From positions 4,216,001 to 4,280,000 of the forward strand of contig NZ_JAUSUZ010000001.1 of NCBI RefSeq assembly GCF_030813715.1: a stretch of 64,000 nucleotides of DNA, in the 5' to 3' direction. Below the pieces are notes generated by a model that was not told where the DNA came from, did no database searches, and saw nothing but the letters and a program-made list of their open reading frames with translations. The stretch's first letter is position 1; every line of letters begins with the position of its first letter. Below, in pieces: positions 20,473 through 53,399 of this stretch. Both the position numbers and the translations under genes were made by a program. Origin of the DNA: Catenuloplanes indicus. GTDB taxonomy: Bacteria > Actinomycetota > Actinomycetes > Mycobacteriales > Micromonosporaceae.

Positions 20473-21215
20473 CGCACACCTCCCCGGGCCGGCTCGGCGT
20501 CGTCCTGCCGATCCCGGCCGTGCTGGTCCCGATCGCGCTGATCGTGGTCGACCGCCGCGCGGGCCAGTTCCCGCAGCAGCTCACTCACCGCGCGCCCGGG
20601 ATCGGCGGCGCCGCTGACCGCGCCGACCACCGCCACGCCGTGTGCGCCGGCCGCGAGCAGCTCCGCCACCCGGGCCGCGGTGACGCCCGCGATCGCGACC
20701 ACCGGCACCGGCACCGCGCCGGTGACCGCGGCCAGCCCGGCCGGCCCGAGCGGCGACGGCAGCCCGTCCTTCGTGCTGGTCGCGTAGCAGGGCCCCACGC
20801 CTAGATAGGACGCGCCGCCCGCGATCGCGGCCCGTCCTACGCCGGAGGTCCGCGCGGTGGCGCCGAGGATCGCGCCCGGCCCGAGCACCCGCCGCGCCGC
20901 CGCGACCGGAAGGTCCAGCGCGCCCACGTGCCCGCCGTCCGCGCCCACCGCGAGCGCCACGTGCAGCCGGTCGTTGATCAGGCAGGTCGCGCCGGCCGCG
21001 GCGCACAGCTCGCGCACCCGTACCGCCAGCTGGTAGGCGTCCAGGTCGGTGGCGTCGTCCTCGACGCGCACCTGCACGACGAGCGGCCCGGTGGCGGCCC
21101 GGACCGCGTCCCCGGCCGCCGCGTGTGCCGCCAGCGCGGCCCGCACGGTGCCGACCGGGTCCCGGCCGGGGCGTGCGTCGGTGATGAGATGCAGTCGTCC
21201 TAGGGTCGCGTCCAC
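20469..21215 (-). CDS. thiE: Thiamine-phosphate synthase ThiE
   Basis: About 248 residues. Joins HMP-PP and thiazole phosphate to thiamine phosphate. Conserved features: RLHLITDARPG, VVQVRVED, INDRLHVALAVGADGGHVGALDLP, LGVGPCYATSTKDGLPSPLG, VPVVAIAGVT and GVAVVGAVSGA. The last ~20 residues are a charged tail (DHDQRDRDQHGRDRQDD). It is the first gene after the TPP riboswitch. GTG 21215 is favoured (GGAGG 10 nt upstream); GTG 21224 is only 2 nt from that site, which is embedded in the end of the riboswitch. Confidence 0.95.
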   Translation of the reverse strand: MDATLGRLHLITDARPGRDPVGTVRAALAAHAAAGDAVRAATGPLVVQVRVEDDATDLDAYQLAVRVRELCAAAGATCLINDRLHVALAVGADGGHVGALDLPVAAARRVLGPGAILGATARTSGVGRAAIAGGASYLGVGPCYATSTKDGLPSPLGPAGLAAVTGAVPVPVVAIAGVTAARVAELLAAGAHGVAVVGAVSGAADPGRAVSELLRELARAAVDHDQRDRDQHGRDRQDDAEPARGGVR

Positions 21216-21225
21216 ATCGTCCACA

Positions 21226-21320
21226 TCCTCCCTGCGCCGGCATGATCCGGATCAGGTTCGACGGTCGGGGGCTGCACAGCCCCCCTCTCAGCCCGGTGCA
21301 CCGGACTCCCGTGGGGTTGT
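21226..21320 (-). promoter_or_regulatory. TPP riboswitch (THI element)
   Basis: Reading the minus strand, the conserved parts occur in order: CCACGGGAG, GGGCTGAGAGG, a variable GC-rich P3 arm (GGGGGCTGTGCAGCCCCC), then ACCTGATCCGGATCATGCC and GGCGCAGGGAGGA. These are the TPP-binding cores of P2/P4. The last GGAGG doubles as the thiE ribosome-binding site, which implies translational control: bound thiamine pyrophosphate should hide the site and shut off the operon. Confidence 0.97.
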
Positions 21321-21334
21321 TGTGTTCGTGGCCG

Positions 21335-32318: not shown

Positions 32319-32540
32319 TTACTTGTACCGATAGACGATGCGCCCACGGGTGAGGTCGTACGGAGAGAGTTCCACGACGACCCGGTCCTCGGGCAGAATG
32401 CGGATGTAGTGCTGCCGCATTTTGCCGCTGATGTGAGCCAGCACCTTGTGACCGTTGGCGAGCTCCACCCTGAACATTGCGTTCGGCAGTGGCTCGATCA
32501 CTCGGCCTTCGATCTCGATGGCTCCGTCTTTCTTCGGCAT
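32319..32540 (-). CDS. infA: Translation initiation factor IF-1
   Basis: 73 residues starting [23 protein letters not shown], an OB-fold protein with [22 protein letters not shown] and [13 protein letters not shown]. It binds the 30S A site with IF-2 and IF-3 during initiation. It is the first gene of the alpha-type operon here, with its own upstream region carrying a possible promoter and the element shared with the str and S10 leaders. An in-frame upstream extension to 32588 is not needed. Confidence 0.98.
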
Positions 32541-32682: not shown

Positions 32683-32712
32683 AGTGTACGCCGCGCATTA
32701 CATCGACACCAA
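32683..32712 (-). promoter_or_regulatory. Possible infA promoter
   Basis: Minus-strand -35 TTGGTG and -10 TACACT with an 18-nt spacer, about 140 nt ahead of infA. The -10 is identical to that of the better-matching rpoB promoter. The match at -35 is only partial. Confidence 0.4.
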
Positions 32713-32727
32713 ACCGAGGTCACGCAT

Positions 32728-32746
32728 CCCGCGGTCGGGTGTGTCG
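32728..32746 (-). promoter_or_regulatory. Conserved leader element, infA copy
   Basis: Minus-strand CGACACACCCGACCGCGGG, differing by one base from the copies before rpsL and rpsJ. It contains the small palindrome CCCG-ACCG-CGGG. It lies 188 nt ahead of infA, 15 nt beyond the possible -35 box. Confidence 0.7.
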
Positions 32747-32779
32747 CGGGCCGCCGATAACCGGACGTAAGGGCCTAAA

Positions 32780-33337
32780 TCACTCGTCGGAGTCACCGTC
32801 CTCGGCCGCCTTCAACCGCTTCCGGGCCTGCTTCGCCGCCCACCGCTGCGGCTCACCGTTCGCCAGACCGGCCATCGTCGCGATCACCAGGAAGATCCCC
32901 CACGGCCCGGCCACCCAACCCGGCCAGAACGCACCGATGCCGTCGTCACTCTGCACCGCCTGCAGCGCCCAGATCGCCACCACCATCCCGACGACACCCA
33001 GATAGGGCGCCCAGTTCTCGATCAGCCAGCGACGCGTCGCATCCAGATACCGCCCGTCCGCCCCGACCGGCCACTCCGGCACCACCACCGCGCCCTGCAC
33101 CGCACCGGCCGCCGGCACCGCCAGCCGCTGCCGCTCCGCGGGCGCGACATCCGGCAGGTCGGTCAGCAGGGGATCGAGATCGCCGTAGGTCTTGGCCGCG
33201 TAGGCCCGGCCGAGCCGCTCATCGAACTCGGCAAGGTCCAGCCGCCCCTCGTTGAGCGCGACGCGCAGCCGCTCCGCGACCGCCTCGCGATCAGCGTCGG
33301 CCGCACGCATCTCCTCACGCCCCATGCGTACCAGCAT
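32780..33337 (-). CDS. DUF1707 small membrane protein
   Basis: About 185 residues. The N-terminal DUF1707 domain is clear (MRAADADREAVAERLRVAL, NEGRLDLAEFDERLGRAYAAKTYGDLDPLLTDLP), followed by a linker and two TM segments (APYLGVVGMVVAIWALQAV and PWGIFLVIATMAGLA) and a charged C-terminus (KQARKRLKAAEDGDSDE). DUF1707 proteins are common in actinomycetes with no settled role. The start is uncertain: ATGs at 33337, 33325 and 33310, none with a good ribosome-binding site. It sits between map and infA on the same strand. Confidence 0.82.
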   Translation of the reverse strand: MLVRMGREEMRAADADREAVAERLRVALNEGRLDLAEFDERLGRAYAAKTYGDLDPLLTDLPDVAPAERQRLAVPAAGAVQGAVVVPEWPVGADGRYLDATRRWLIENWAPYLGVVGMVVAIWALQAVQSDDGIGAFWPGWVAGPWGIFLVIATMAGLANGEPQRWAAKQARKRLKAAEDGDSDE

Positions 33338-33453
33338 GGCACCGCCCGACAAACCAAATCAAGATCATCAGTGGGTACGGGCGCGGCCCTCCCCGGCCTC
33401 TCCTGAGCACCCGGCGCCCACCCGCCCAGACCCGCCGGCGGCGGCCTCCGTCG

Positions 33454-46365: not shown

Positions 46366-46674
46366 CTACAGCTTGATCTCGATGTCGACGCCGGCCGGCA
46401 GGTCGAGACGCATGAGCGAGTCGACCGTCTTCGGAGTCGGGTCGATGATGTCGATCAGACGCTTGTGCGTACGCATCTCGAAGTGCTCGCGCGAGTCCTT
46501 GTACTTGTGCGGCGAACGGATCACGCAGAAACGGTTGATCTCCGTGGGCAGCGGCACCGGGCCCGCGACCTGCGCCCCGGTGCGCGTCACCGTCTCGACG
46601 ATCTTCCGCGCCGAGGAATCGACGACCTCGTGGTCGTAGGCCTTGAGCCGGATGCGGATCTTCTGTCCCGCCAT
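46366..46674 (-). CDS. rpsJ: 30S ribosomal protein S10 (NusE)
   Basis: 102 residues: [76 protein letters not shown]. Part of the 30S head and, as NusE, a partner of NusB/NusG in transcription antitermination. First gene of the long ribosomal unit, preceded by a ~400-nt leader and promoter region. Confidence 0.99.
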
Positions 46675-47073
46675 GGTGGCTTCTGTTTCCTTCTCTCGAT
46701 GCCGCTACCTGCCGAGTAGAACTCCTCGGCATGCCCCCGGATCAGACTCGGCCGGGTGTTTCACCGGCCGGATTTGACCCGGGGCACAGGGCCCTCGACC
46801 CTGTGCTGTCCGACCCCCGCGGTCGGGCGTGTCGCGTTTTAACTTCACGCCCCGCCCCGGAATCCGGAGCAGATTGCCCGTCAGCCCTCGGTGAGGACTT
46901 CGTCCGCCGGGATCGGGGCGCCCTGGGCGATCAACCAACTATTCATTGATCAACAAACCCCAGACGCCGGGCGAGGGCGACCGGACATGACACATCCAGC
47001 CGCCCCGCGCGGACGCAACCTGACTAGTATGCCGTATTACCGAACGGCAACGCTAATCGGGGTACCTGTTTAC
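46675..47073 (-). other. S10 operon upstream region
   Basis: The 399-nt gap between rpsJ and the tuf stop has no ORF that looks real. It holds the 25-nt element at 46811-46835, a CACAGGG/CCCTGTG pair at about 46784-46804, and an A+T-rich island near 46928-46958 with two GATCAAC direct repeats 19 nt apart (46929 and 46948). No clear terminator follows tuf, so partial read-through from tuf into rpsJ is possible. No convincing -35/-10 pair was found. Confidence 0.5.
46811..46835 (-). promoter_or_regulatory. Conserved leader element, S10 copy
   Basis: A 25-nt stretch identical to 51671-51695 before rpsL; its 19-nt core CGACACGCCCGACCGCGGG (46816-46834, minus strand) recurs with one change before infA. 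It can fold as CCGACC-GCGGG-GGTCGG. It lies about 138 nt ahead of rpsJ. Confidence 0.8.
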
Positions 47074-48267
47074 TTACTTGATGATCTTCGTGACCGTGCC
47101 GGCGCCGACGGTGCGGCCACCCTCACGGATCGCGAACTTCAGGCCCTGCTCCATGGCGATGGGCTGGATCAGCTTGACCGCCATCGAGGTGGAGTCGCCC
47201 GGCATGACCATCTCGGTGCCCTCGGGGAGGGTCACGACGCCGGTCACGTCGGTGGTCCGGAAGTAGAACTGCGGACGGTAGTTCTGGAAGAACGGCGTGT
47301 GCCGGCCACCCTCCTCCTTGGAGAGGATGTAGACCTGGCCCTCGAACTCCGTGTGCGGAGTCGTGGTGCCCGGCTTGATGACGACCATGCCGCGCTCGAC
47401 GTCCTCGCGCTTGATGCCGCGGAGGAGCAGACCGACGTTCTCGCCGGCACGCGCCTCGTCCAGCACCTTGCGGAACATCTCGATACCGGTGCAGATCGTC
47501 TTGGTCGACTTCTCGCGGATGCCGACGATCTCCACCTCCTCGTTCGGCTTGAGGATACCGCGCTCGGCGCGGCCGGTGACGACCGTTCCACGACCGGTGA
47601 TCGTGAAGACGTCCTCGATCGGCATGAGGAACGGCTTCTCGGTCTCACGGTCCGGCTGCGGGATCGCGGTGTCGACCGCGTCCATCAGCTCGAGCAGCTT
47701 GCCGGTCCACTCCGGGTCGCCCTCCAGCGCCTTGAGCGCCGAGACACGCACGACCGGCAGGTCGTCGCCCGGGAACTCGTAGGTGCTGAGCAGCTCGCGA
47801 ACCTCGAGCTCAACGAGCTCCAGGAGCTCCTCGTCGTCGACCATGTCGCTCTTGTTGAGCGCCACGACGATGTACGGAACGCCGACCTGGCGGGCCAGGA
47901 GCACGTGCTCCTTGGTCTGCGGCATCGGGCCGTCGGTCGCCGCGACCACCAGGATCGCGCCGTCCATCTGCGCGGCACCGGTGATCATGTTCTTGATGTA
48001 GTCCGCGTGGCCGGGGCAGTCGACGTGGGCGTAGTGCCGCTTGTCGGTCTGGTACTCGACGTGCGCGATGGAGATCGTGATACCGCGGGCCTTCTCCTCC
48101 GGCGCCTTGTCGATCTCGTCGAACGGCGTGTAGGGGTTCAGGTCCGGGTACTTGTCGTGCAGGACCTTGGTGATGGCCGCAGTCAGCGTCGTCTTACCGT
48201 GGTCGATGTGACCAATGGTGCCGATGTTGACGTGCGGCTTAGTCCGCTCGAACTTCGCCTTCGCCAC
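47074..48267 (-). CDS. tuf: Elongation factor Tu
   Basis: A 397-residue GTPase delivering aminoacyl-tRNA to the A site. G1 [10 protein letters not shown], switch [10 protein letters not shown]3 DCPGHADY, G4 NKSDMVDD and G5 SALKAL are intact; domains 2 and 3 ([14 protein letters not shown] ... [20 protein letters not shown]) are full length. GTG start at 48267 with AGGAGG upstream. Last gene of the str operon, 181 nt after fusA, with several hairpins in between. Confidence 0.99.
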
Positions 48268-48303
48268 TGGGTCCTCCTGTGGACTGTCTGGTTCGTTTGC
48301 GCA

Positions 48304-48401
48304 CGGCGCCGGCTGGGGCGCCGCGAACATTGTCGACTGTGCGCCACGGGCCGGATTGGCATCCGGCCCGTGACACTGCGGTCTTTGAGGCCGCTTCGGC
48401 C
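48304..48401 (-). other. Hairpin cluster between fusA and tuf
   Basis: Three inverted repeats in 100 nt: GGCCG/CGGCC (48389-48401), a perfect 12-bp stem with a 4-nt loop CACGGGCCGGAT/ATCCGGCCCGTG (48345-48372), and CGGCGCC/GGCGCCG (48304-48323). They may set tuf transcript ends, attenuate, or protect a separate tuf mRNA. No clear tuf promoter was found. Confidence 0.7.
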
Positions 48402-48448
48402 GTCAGGCCAGGTCTCACACAGCCCGCCGAGACGGGCCCGGGGTGGAA

Positions 48449-50545
<2,097 letters not shown>

Positions 50546-50615
50546 TGTAATCCCTACTTCGTCGTCTCGTCGGGTTGCTGAATCACCCGGCAGGCACCGG
50601 ATGAGGGTTGCGCCG

Positions 50616-50674
50616 GGTAATCCAGCGGTGTGCCCGGCGGCCGGCCGAGACCGGCGCCGGGCGGCTGGATTACC
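50616..50674 (-). other. Large hairpin overlapping the rpsG stop codon
   Basis: Outer 11-bp stem GGTAATCCAGC/GCTGGATTACC (50616-50626 with 50664-50674), whose one arm contains the rpsG stop, and an inner stem of 12 bp with one bulge (GCCCGGCG-CCGG with CCGG-CGCCGGGC, 50632-50662). It sits between rpsG and fusA. Confidence 0.75.
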
Positions 50675-51140
50675 AGCGGTAGTGCGCGAAGGCCTTGTTG
50701 GACTCGGCCATCTTGTGCGTGTCCTCGCGCCGCTTGACGGCGGCACCGAGGCCATTGCTCGCGTCGAGCAGCTCGTTCTGCAGCCGCTCGATCATGGTCT
50801 TCTCGCGACGGGCCTTGGAGTACGTGGTCAGCCAGCGCAGGCCCAGCGTCAGAGCGCGGGACGGGCGGACCTCGACCGGCACCTGGTAGGTCGCGCCACC
50901 GACACGGCGGCTGCGGACCTCGAGGGTCGGCTTGACGTTGTCCATGGCGCGCTTGAGCGTCACGACCGGGTCAGTGCCGGTCTTCTCCCGGCAGCCCTCG
51001 AGGGCGCCGTAGACGATGCGCTCGGCGAGCGCGCGCTTGCCGTCCATCAGGATCTTGTTCACCAGCTGGGTGACCAGCGGCGAGTTGTAAACCGGGTCCG
51101 GCGTCAGCGGCCGACGGGGAGCGGGGCCCTTACGCGGCAT
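50670..51140 (-). CDS. rpsG: 30S ribosomal protein S7
   Basis: 156 residues: [83 protein letters not shown], ending AFAHYRW. Organises the 30S head and the mRNA exit channel; represses the str operon in E. coli. Starts just after the rpsL stop. Confidence 0.99.
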
Positions 51141-51141
51141 G

Positions 51142-51516
51142 TCAGCTCTTCTCCTTCTTCGCGCCGTAGCGGCTGCGCGCCTGCTTGCGGTTACGCACAC
51201 CCTGGGTGTCGAGCGAACCGCGGATGATCTTGTAGCGAACGCCCGGCAGGTCCTTCACGCGACCGCCACGCACGAGCACGATCGAGTGCTCCTGCAGGTT
51301 GTGACCCACACCCGGGATGTACGCGGTCACCTCGATCTGGCTGCTGAGCTTGACACGAGCGACCTTGCGCAGCGCCGAGTTGGGCTTCTTCGGGGTGGTG
51401 GTGTAGACGCGCGTGCAGACTCCGCGACGCTGGGGACTCCCCTTCAGCGCCGGCGTCTTGGTCTTACTCGTCTTCGCCTGGCGGCCCTTGCGGACCAGCT
51501 GCTGGATCGTGGGCAC
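51142..51516 (-). CDS. rpsL: 30S ribosomal protein S12
   Basis: 124 residues at the decoding centre: [67 protein letters not shown] and [17 protein letters not shown]. The Lys residues of the PKKPNS and RVKDLPG loops, where streptomycin-resistance changes arise, have the ordinary sensitive form. GTG start. First gene of the str operon, behind a ~300-nt leader. Confidence 0.99.
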
Positions 51517-51670
51517 CGGGTACTCCGCTCCCTGTCCTGTCCGGGCCCGTGGGCCCGTTAACTTCCGTGGCGGCCGCCCTTGTGGCGACCGGACCGTCTG
51601 TCTTACCTACCCGGCTGCGCCGGTCTTGCCTCTTGCTGCCGATCGGGGGGCCTGCTGGGAGTAGGCCTCT

Positions 51671-51695
51671 CGACCCCCGCGGTCGGGCGTGTCGC
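51671..51695 (-). promoter_or_regulatory. Conserved leader element, str copy
   Basis: Identical over 25 nt to 46811-46835. It lies about 155 nt ahead of rpsL and ~130 nt downstream of the predicted transcription start, so here it should be transcribed. It can form CGACC-GCGGG-GGTCG. Confidence 0.8.
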
Positions 51696-51830
51696 CCGGC
51701 GCTACGGTCGCGCGGTGAAGACTCGCGCTGGTCTGCCATTGTCGTGGTGCGCATCGCTCATCCGGACTCTGAAATCCGGACCGAACGGCGCACGCACAAG
51801 TTGCCCGGGCTAGCCCGGGCACGAAGGGAA

Positions 51831-51859
51831 AGAGTACCCACCGTGAGGGCGCTGGTCAA
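51831..51859 (-). promoter_or_regulatory. Probable str operon promoter
   Basis: Minus strand -35 TTGACC (5 of 6), 17-nt spacer, -10 TACTCT (4 of 6). The predicted start near 51824 gives a ~300-nt leader. A GCCCGGGC inverted repeat begins about 4 nt after the start. Confidence 0.75.
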
Positions 51860-52079
51860 AACCGGACGGTAAGGAGAGCTATCTCCCCACTACACGACTC
51901 CCAACGGATCTCCGGCTTCGGACCTCACACCCGGCGATCCGGCACCGGGAAACCCGGGATCCAGAACTCCTGATGCTGACACCTTCAGCGACGAACCACT
52001 CTGCAAAGCCAAGTGTACCCGGTCCCCAGGGACGCCATTCACTGACTCCCTACATGCCGACGGGCCGCCGGGCAAGTAC

Positions 52080-53399
52080 CTACGACAGGCTCAGCACCAC
52101 CACGATCAGCAGGGAGAGCAGCGCCACCACGGCCCCGCCACCGCCGAGCGACAGGCCGGCGATCGCCAGCCCGCGGCCGCTGAACCGGATCGACGACGCC
52201 TCGGCCGGCCGGCGCACCTGCCGCAGCGCGCCGGTGCCCTGCACCACCGCTCCGACGCCCGCGATCACCGCCAGCAACGCGAACGCACCGGCGACCAGGC
52301 CGCCCCAGCCACCCTGCGCGCCGAGCAGCCCGAAGCACGCCACGGCGAACGACACCAGCAGCGCCGCACTCCCGGTGATCAGCGACCCGATCGCGAGCCC
52401 GGACACCACCGCGGGCACCTCCAGGTGCACCACCGCGAACGGCGTCTCCGGCACCGGCTCCACCCGCTCCGCGTTCCCCCAGCCCTCCCGCGGCGGCGGC
52501 GGAAACCCGTGCAGACCCGTCCGGGGGTACGCCGCGGCCCGCGGCCCGGCCGGCAGCGGCGCACCGGCCATCGCGTACCCCGGGTGCGCCATCACCGCGA
52601 CCAGCTGCTGCGCCGGCACCGCCGGATATCCCGGGTACGCCGCCGGCGGCGGGCCACCCGGCCCGGGGTGGGCCACCGGCTGCCCGGGGTAACCAGAACC
52701 GGCCTGCCCCGGATACGCCGCCGGCTGCCCGGGATACCCGGAACCGAGCGCCACCGGATTCGCCGCCGGCTGGCCGGAATACCCGGAGCCGGGCGCTACC
52801 GGATACGCCGCAGGTTGCCCGTAATACCCAGGACCGGCCTGCCCCGGATGCCCGTAGCCCGGATACATCTGCTCGCCGAACGACTGCGCCGGATACCCCT
52901 GGCCGGCATGCGGCTGCCCGGAATATGCCTGGGCCCACGAGGCCTGCCCCGGATACGGCTGCCCCGGATACGGCTGCCCCGGATACGGCTGCCCGGGATA
53001 CGGCTGAGCCGGGGACGCCGACCCGGGATAGGGCTGCCCCGGATACGGCGGATGACCGGGATAGGCCGCGGGGCGCACCGGTCCCGGCGCCGCGTGTGGC
53101 GGCATTCCCGCTCCCGGTCCGTTGACGAGCGGCCCGGCTCCCACAGTGGACGGCCCCGGCTGCGCGGCCGCCGCCCCGGAAGCTGCCGGGGTAGGCGCCG
53201 GAACCTCCGTGACCGCCGGCCCTGGCTCGGCCGCACCCGCCGGCTCGGCCGCACGCGGCGGCTCGGCCGCATGCACCGGCTCGGGCGCGGACAGCGGCTC
53301 GGCCGCGGACGGCGGATCGGGCGCGCGCGACGGCTCGGATCCGGCCGCCGGTCGTTGCCACACGGAATCGGGGTGCCCGCCCTGCGGCTGTTCGGTCAC
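52080..53399 (-). CDS. Pro-rich membrane protein with YPGQP repeats (DUF4190-like C-terminus)
   Basis: 439 residues. Ala/Glu/Pro-rich N-terminus, then from about 110 to 260 many YPGQP/YPGQA-type repeats (QPYPGQPYPGQPYPGQ). The C-terminal ~140 residues carry three to four hydrophobic segments (VSGLAIGSLITGSAALLVSFAVACFGLL, LVAGAFALLAVIAGVGAVV, GLAIAGLSLGGGGAVVALLSLLIVVVL), resembling DUF4190-type small membrane domains. GTG 53399 is backed by GGGAGGAG about 9 nt upstream. Function unknown; it and the next gene interrupt the usual rpoC-rpsL neighbourhood. Confidence 0.8.
   Translation of the reverse strand: MTEQPQGGHPDSVWQRPAAGSEPSRAPDPPSAAEPLSAPEPVHAAEPPRAAEPAGAAEPGPAVTEVPAPTPAASGAAAAQPGPSTVGAGPLVNGPGAGMPPHAAPGPVRPAAYPGHPPYPGQPYPGSASPAQPYPGQPYPGQPYPGQPYPGQASWAQAYSGQPHAGQGYPAQSFGEQMYPGYGHPGQAGPGYYGQPAAYPVAPGSGYSGQPAANPVALGSGYPGQPAAYPGQAGSGYPGQPVAHPGPGGPPPAAYPGYPAVPAQQLVAVMAHPGYAMAGAPLPAGPRAAAYPRTGLHGFPPPPREGWGNAERVEPVPETPFAVVHLEVPAVVSGLAIGSLITGSAALLVSFAVACFGLLGAQGGWGGLVAGAFALLAVIAGVGAVVQGTGALRQVRRPAEASSIRFSGRGLAIAGLSLGGGGAVVALLSLLIVVVLSLS

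Follow-up and report, generated by a model that had tools for sequence, protein, structure and literature searches.

A near-invariant 26-nt element shared by the leaders of the str and S10 ribosomal-protein operons of Actinomycetes looks like a ribosome-synthesis control signal

The leaders of two big ribosomal-protein operons of Catenuloplanes indicus, str and S10, share a near-invariant element of 26 nucleotides (nt) that looks like an undescribed control signal of ribosome synthesis. We analysed a 64,000-nt stretch of this genome (contig NZ_JAUSUZ010000001.1, positions 4,216,001 to 4,280,000 of the forward strand; hereafter the window) and found GCGACACGCCCGACCGCGGGGGTCG twice on its minus strand, at 46835-46811 ahead of rpsJ and at 51695-51671 ahead of rpsL, the two copies being identical over 25 nt. 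On the same strand, CGACACACCCGACCGCGGG lies at 32746-32728 ahead of infA and differs by one change from the 19-nt core (19-mer) of the two long copies. According to PMC8470358, there is almost no information on the control of ribosomal-protein synthesis in Actinobacteria.

Allowing up to three mismatches, the 19-mer had exactly three sites in the window, compared with a mean of 0.47 and a maximum of 2 in 100 shuffles. A weight matrix made from 65 distinct copies, all taken from other genomes, recovered the same three sites (scores in Table 1), left every other window site at or below 4 bits and gave a best score of 8.2 bits on five shuffled windows. Since only these three sites were returned, no element precedes rpoB, rplJ or secY, in agreement with the initial annotation of this DNA. 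That annotation had also reported the 25-nt identity and the one-change copy before infA, which we confirmed on the minus-strand letters, as well as distances of about 137 to 188 nt to the start codons of rpsJ, rpsL and infA, which were as claimed. Its extent of 25 nt holds for the identity of the two copies, the conserved block being longer, at 26 nt.

We then sampled the class in a manner independent of the pattern, locating rpsL and rpsJ in 79 genomes by protein search (74 and 72 matched, respectively) and inspecting the 450 nt upstream, with presence defined as at least 19 of 25 defined letters; the rpsL of one genome (G585) and the rpsJ of another (G584) were dropped for starting at contig starts. 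The element was present in 71 of 75 rpsL leaders (29 of 30 families) and in 38 of 71 rpsJ leaders (15 of 30 families), so the expectation that close relatives carry it in the same leaders held. Seven of the rpsL copies, four of them in one family (f2), scored just 19-20, a value that the best of 20 shuffles reached in a few leaders, and six of these seven were also recovered by the sequence model described below. Among the four rpsL leaders lacking the element, one belongs to a divergent second rpsL with 56% identity (L334, genome G542); leaders without it also include those of rpsL in genomes G144, G333 and G501. Two rpsL genes also occur in genome G586, both with the element (L333 and L261). 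An antisense element, at a threshold of at least 20 of 25 letters, was found in none of 146 leaders, and the common orientation first noted for the window copies thus holds class-wide. All five genomes of 1.3-1.4 Mb examined in one family (f98) retain the element. Beyond promoter and tuf-coding words, no other block common to the str and S10 leaders stood out as equally frequent.

A sequence-only model built from the 65 copies gave, at E values up to 0.001, 110 matches in 73 of 78 whole genomes, and 108 of the 110 lie before rpsL or rpsJ (69 before rpsL, 38 before rpsJ and one before rpsL across an assembly gap; the remaining two are the infA copy of C. indicus and one other). As the model was built from such leaders, their recovery is expected; the informative part is the near-absence of other matches, and no genome of the 78 had more than three. 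The single other match (L370, genome G566, about 558-583) lies directly behind an open reading frame (ORF) with a DUF5615/PIN-like domain.

Within the family, a 15-mer of the element was matched in 109 of 121 genomes, a count that includes chance matches, as a reversed control indicated; more telling is that many pairs of sites occur about 4.6-5 kb apart, which is the str-S10 spacing. Thirty loci from 16 genomes, reached through named loci, comprised 13 before rpsL, 10 before rpsJ and seven elsewhere, and one more listed match had no locus. Among the named carriers are Micromonospora, Actinoplanes, Dactylosporangium, Streptomyces, Kitasatospora, Nocardioides, Microlunatus, Frankia, Actinomadura and Glycomyces. 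The S10 protein of C. indicus itself is identical to several Micromonospora and Actinoplanes records. In a scan of the phylum, a 17-mer was matched in 119 of 396 genomes; in its other classes, none of 15 loci examined among the matches listed precedes rpsL or rpsJ, as judged by protein-start motifs, and there was no sign of the element beyond the class in the part examined.

In the 9.25-Mb genome of C. indicus, the 19-mer occurs exactly twice, once with one mismatch and four times with two mismatches, and at three mismatches the total of 61 matches showed no clear excess over the 51 in a reversed control. The sequence model ranked the str and S10 copies first (E values in Table 1), followed by the infA copy in third place (8e-4, 22.8 bits), a site within ftsX in fourth (0.0014, 22.0 bits) and a fifth-best match at an E value of 0.17. 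By sequence, the str and S10 copies are beyond doubt true copies. No ribosomal gene was seen among the ORFs at five other sites of this genome (L037, L038, L042, L006 and L036), for two of which Pfam identified FtsX (L038) and a glyoxalase-like protein (L036). The 19-mer counts and the model searches together show that the element is not scattered over unrelated sites.

The infA copy stands apart. By score it is hardly better than the best coding-sequence site, the one in ftsX. Its 19-mer is exact in five of five genomes of the genus examined and carries one additional change in two genomes of a second genus; the element is absent from infA in 10 further genomes of the family, and also outside the family in the three of eight genomes in which infA was located. 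A probable infA promoter lies downstream of the copy (Table 1). Promoter pairs of this TTG...TAnnnT kind were present in 14 of 16 family infA leaders read, and all seven infA copies lie upstream of a TTGG...TACACT pair. This pair is retained in most family genomes examined, and the upstream element is not. The initial annotation had placed the infA site, like the other two, ahead of the first gene of a ribosomal-protein unit: the sequence part of that claim stands, and a location in the infA leader is not supported, the copy lying upstream of the probable promoter. It was seen in two genera only. The site may work on read-through RNA or as DNA, or it may be incidental. The gene adjoining it upstream (32780-33352, minus strand) encodes a DUF1707 (SHOCT-like) protein, with its stop codon about 30 nt before the element.

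The distribution of the element among rpsJ leaders followed the position of tuf. All 33 rpsJ genes without an element follow a tuf stop codon at a distance of 74-326 nt, which in 24 cases is no more than 165 nt, and the element was present in 23 of 23 rpsJ leaders with no tuf found within 450 nt; in the 15 cases with both tuf and the element, tuf lies 183-411 nt upstream. From this pattern of tuf distances, rpsJ lacks a copy of its own where it looks joined to the str unit, whose leader already has one. The sequences thus point to roughly one element per transcription-unit head, a strong tendency rather than a law, and families are not independent in these counts.

Spacing within the leaders was loose. 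In the class sample the element lies 54-184 nt from the start codon. Upstream of the element, 58 of 71 rpsL leaders hold a promoter-like pair, defined by at least 8 of the 12 letters of TTGACA and TATAAT at a spacing of 16-18 nt, with TAnnnT; in 46 of these leaders the pair has TTGACC. Letter shuffles of those stretches gave such a pair in 5.2%. The distance from the -10 box to the element in rpsL leaders ranged from 20 to 255 nt with a median of 121; in the window it is 135 nt, which places the str copy inside the predicted transcript, as had been proposed. Because such pairs precede the element in most rpsL leaders, it is probably transcribed there; for the str and S10 elements alike, transcription is probable on the strength of predicted promoters. 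Few S10 leaders (4 of 38) have the searched pair. Right behind tuf, a conserved promoter-like block, CGGCATACTAGTCAGGTTGCG, precedes the element by about 130-217 nt; its 10-mers recur in 11 of 14 Micromonosporaceae rpsJ leaders, and we infer that it acts as a promoter.

At 51780-51830 of the window (minus strand), the predicted start of the str transcript is an inverted repeat, GCCCGGGC, with GTGCGTG after it, and words like these recur in the str leaders of other families. The rpsL transcription start of Mycobacterium smegmatis was reportedly mapped, by Kenney and Churchward in 1996, about 199 nt before the start codon. A remark on the -10 sequence of that promoter is found in PMC6529629, and PMC6599336 refers to its supplement for where transcription begins at the rpsJ promoter of Actinoplanes SE50/110.

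Table 1. Element copies, associated genes and predicted promoters in the window
Feature	Positions	Strand	Basis
26-nt element GCGACACGCCCGACCGCGGGGGTCGG, rpsJ (S10 operon) leader	46810..46835	-	weight matrix 38.8 bits; sequence model E 1.4e-7
26-nt element, final base A, rpsL (str operon) leader	51670..51695	-	weight matrix 37.9 bits; sequence model E 1.0e-7
Partial third copy upstream of infA; 5' part matching, 3' arm different	32722..32747	-	weight matrix 25.4 bits; sequence model E 8e-4
rpsJ (S10), heading the S10 operon	46366..46674	-	
rpsL (S12), heading the str operon and starting with GTG	51142..51516	-	
infA (IF1)	32319..32540	-	
Predicted str promoter TTGACC-17-TACTCT, matching the consensus at 8 of 12 letters and preceding the element by 135 nt	51831..51859	-	
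Conserved promoter-like block CGGCATACTAGTCAGGTTGCG right behind tuf, upstream of the S10 element	47014..47034	-	position and CATACT/CATAAT core
Probable infA promoter TTGGTG-18-TACACT, between the third copy and infA	32683..32712	-	pair of this kind in 14 of 16 family infA leaders read

What is conserved is sequence. Nine columns were invariant in the 65 distinct copies (A3, C4, C8, C9, C10, G11, C16, G17 and G19, counted from the C of CGACAC), and the conserved columns are asymmetric, the 3' arm being the most variable part. The initial annotation had drawn attention to palindromes in the core. The arms CCCG/CGGG are intact in 93.5% of cells, compared with 80.5% for CCGACC/GGTCGG, neither shows a compensatory change, and RNAalifold predicted no pair on the 65 distinct copies. 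When 109 copies were folded in context, 43 formed CCGACC/GGTCGG, 24 CCCG/CGGG, three a third pairing and 39 none; unpaired probabilities were much alike with shuffled flanks, and in these predictions the flanks do not shape the element. With no double-sided change in either candidate helix, a conserved hairpin finds no support, and the palindromes are not the conserved feature.

Mimicry of ribosomal RNA (rRNA) was rejected as well, as the best alignments of the element to the 16S and 23S rRNA of C. indicus, on both strands, were no better than those of shuffled elements (fraction 0.31-0.93). The suggested site for a ribosomal protein accordingly finds no likeness to either rRNA that would point to one, and a helix-44 stretch had no match in the 16S locus. 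In one 16S and one 23S locus, flanks included, the weight matrix scored no site above 4 bits; such element-free rRNA (rrn) loci argue mildly against a plain rrn-type boxA. Outside the window, the genome holds a 23S rRNA remnant (C1:7732502-7734670) made of three adjoining pieces that lack the 5' part, in addition to four full 23S genes.

Orientation, a copy at the head of the unit, free spacing, conservation of sequence and retention in small genomes together suggest a site, probably in RNA, that is read by core machinery. In the reading we favour, GCGACACRCCCGANCGCGKGGGTCGG would be a cis-acting RNA signal that str and S10 unit transcripts of the class carry close to their 5' ends, recognised as sequence by a core component of gene expression, since genomes of 1.3-1.4 Mb retain it. 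The binding partner of the nascent element, as it leaves RNA polymerase, would be the polymerase itself or a factor of elongation or antitermination, and the bound element would set how many polymerases continue into these long operons, much like boxA/nut or put sites. The tuf pattern, with rpsJ lacking the element only behind tuf and carrying it where no tuf was found within 450 nt, is what would be expected of a mark used once per transcript. That the element is such a signal, read by the elongation or antitermination machinery about once per str or S10 transcript, is plausible though short of probable. In a more specific version, a dedicated, class-wide elongation signal of 26 nt, sequence-specific and unrelated to boxA, would be read once per transcript by RNA polymerase or a Nus-like factor and would couple the two largest ribosomal-protein units to each other and to growth, comparably to boxA in rRNA operons; this version is rather unlikely. 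The initial proposal of a shared RNA leader or operator of ribosomal-protein operons survives as a shared, orientation-fixed, class-wide element, stripped of the infA role and of the hairpin.

Several observations weigh against this elongation signal. The infA copy lies outside the leader of the transcript from the promoter below it, where an RNA signal would need read-through. In nine of the 33 element-less rpsJ cases, tuf gaps of 245-326 nt leave room for a promoter of rpsJ's own. No promoter of the searched kind was found in 13 of 71 rpsL and 34 of 38 element-bearing rpsJ leaders, and a stricter stock scan (9 of 12 letters) found none in 46700-52000. The elongation or antitermination step itself is a guess from position, with widely varying distances to promoter and start codon, and the position is equally compatible with processing, stability or feedback.

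Feedback would have a surplus ribosomal protein, encoded in str or S10, bind the element and repress both operons through a shared leader. Both operons encode ribosomal proteins, and this kind of control is the known rule in Escherichia coli, by uS7 for str and uL4 for S10 (PMC10931766); one protein acting on two operons would also account for identical copies. However, the similarity to 16S and 23S rRNA does not exceed that of shuffled elements, and covariation, which backs the ribosomal-protein leaders of PMC7247131, is absent. The start-codon distance is also variable for such a site, and we regard feedback as possible but unlikely. A DNA operator, a double-stranded site for a transcription factor in the leaders and, in two genera, upstream of infA, would make the infA copy upstream of its promoter natural and would fit the inverted repeat CCGACC-N5-GGTCGG seen in many copies; the absence of antisense copies from all 146 leaders, the lack of symmetry among conserved columns, and a distance below the predicted -10 box of rpsL leaders that is variable for a usual operator make it improbable.

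No better placed than slightly ahead of the operator is a processing or stability site, at which a nuclease cuts, or from which it is excluded, so as to set the half-life of two long mRNAs. About one copy per unit near the 5' end and the conservation of sequence instead of structure would suit it, but no bacterial nuclease is known to us to prefer a specific sequence of 20 nt. An upstream ORF encoding a leader peptide with a conserved nascent chain is very improbable: one frame does put the variable positions 7, 13 and 22 at third codon positions, but positions 4, 10, 16 and 19, third positions in the same frame, are invariant in the 65 distinct copies, positions 15 and 18 vary though they are second codon positions, and no start codon is constant in the flanks. 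Hardly any weight attaches to chance or a mobile repeat. The infA copy alone does score like the site inside ftsX, but the element occurs class-wide at two orthologous places, shuffles score far lower or hold fewer sites, and model matches per genome are few; the class-wide data are enough to refute this explanation where the S10 and str copies are concerned.

Neither databases nor literature described the element in the scope covered. Rfam 15 returned over the whole window, at gathering score, only a thiamine pyrophosphate (TPP) riboswitch away from the element, and a search of 46600-52200 at E values up to 10 gave nothing at the element. The riboswitch lies at 21211-21322 of the minus strand and scores 61.7 bits. 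Five stretches of the element had no printed match in the literature text searched, and literature searches found no description of it, with figures, supplements and subscription papers outside the scope of both. In the available part of PMC7247131, a word search did not find rpsJ, and 'rpsl' appeared a single time, in the row for L13.

The phylum includes antibiotic-producing actinomycetes and mycobacteria, in which the regulation of ribosomal proteins has hardly been studied. A near-invariant element with a simple placement rule offers a direct handle on it, as the protein that reads the element could be fished with the 26-nt RNA. If the proposed signal is real, it would be an unusual case of a single sequence mark for two separate ribosomal-protein operons.

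Among known systems, the boxA/nut sites of rrn operons and phage lambda, put sites and EAR-type elements are short, oriented RNA marks of long transcripts. The element resembles them in being short and oriented, in lying near the 5' end as judged by predicted promoters, and in its variable spacing to promoter and first gene; it differs from boxA in that the two rrn loci scanned in C. indicus lack a similar site, and we know of no boxA that resembles it in sequence. Like the ribosomal-protein leaders of Eckert and Weinberg 2020 (PMC7247131) and Rfam 15, it is non-coding, precedes ribosomal-protein operons and is conserved over a large taxon, but it is conserved as sequence without covariation, shows no rRNA likeness and is common to two separate operons. 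The mycobacterial rpsO leader lies in the 5' untranslated region of a ribosomal-protein gene of the same phylum, but is a pseudoknot recognised by its own product, uS15 (PMC8470358, PMC10931766). In E. coli the autoregulated operons are the same, str and S10; uS7 acts at the region preceding its cistron, and the target of uL4 is a leader that is long and structured (PMC10931766), whereas here one short element heads both.

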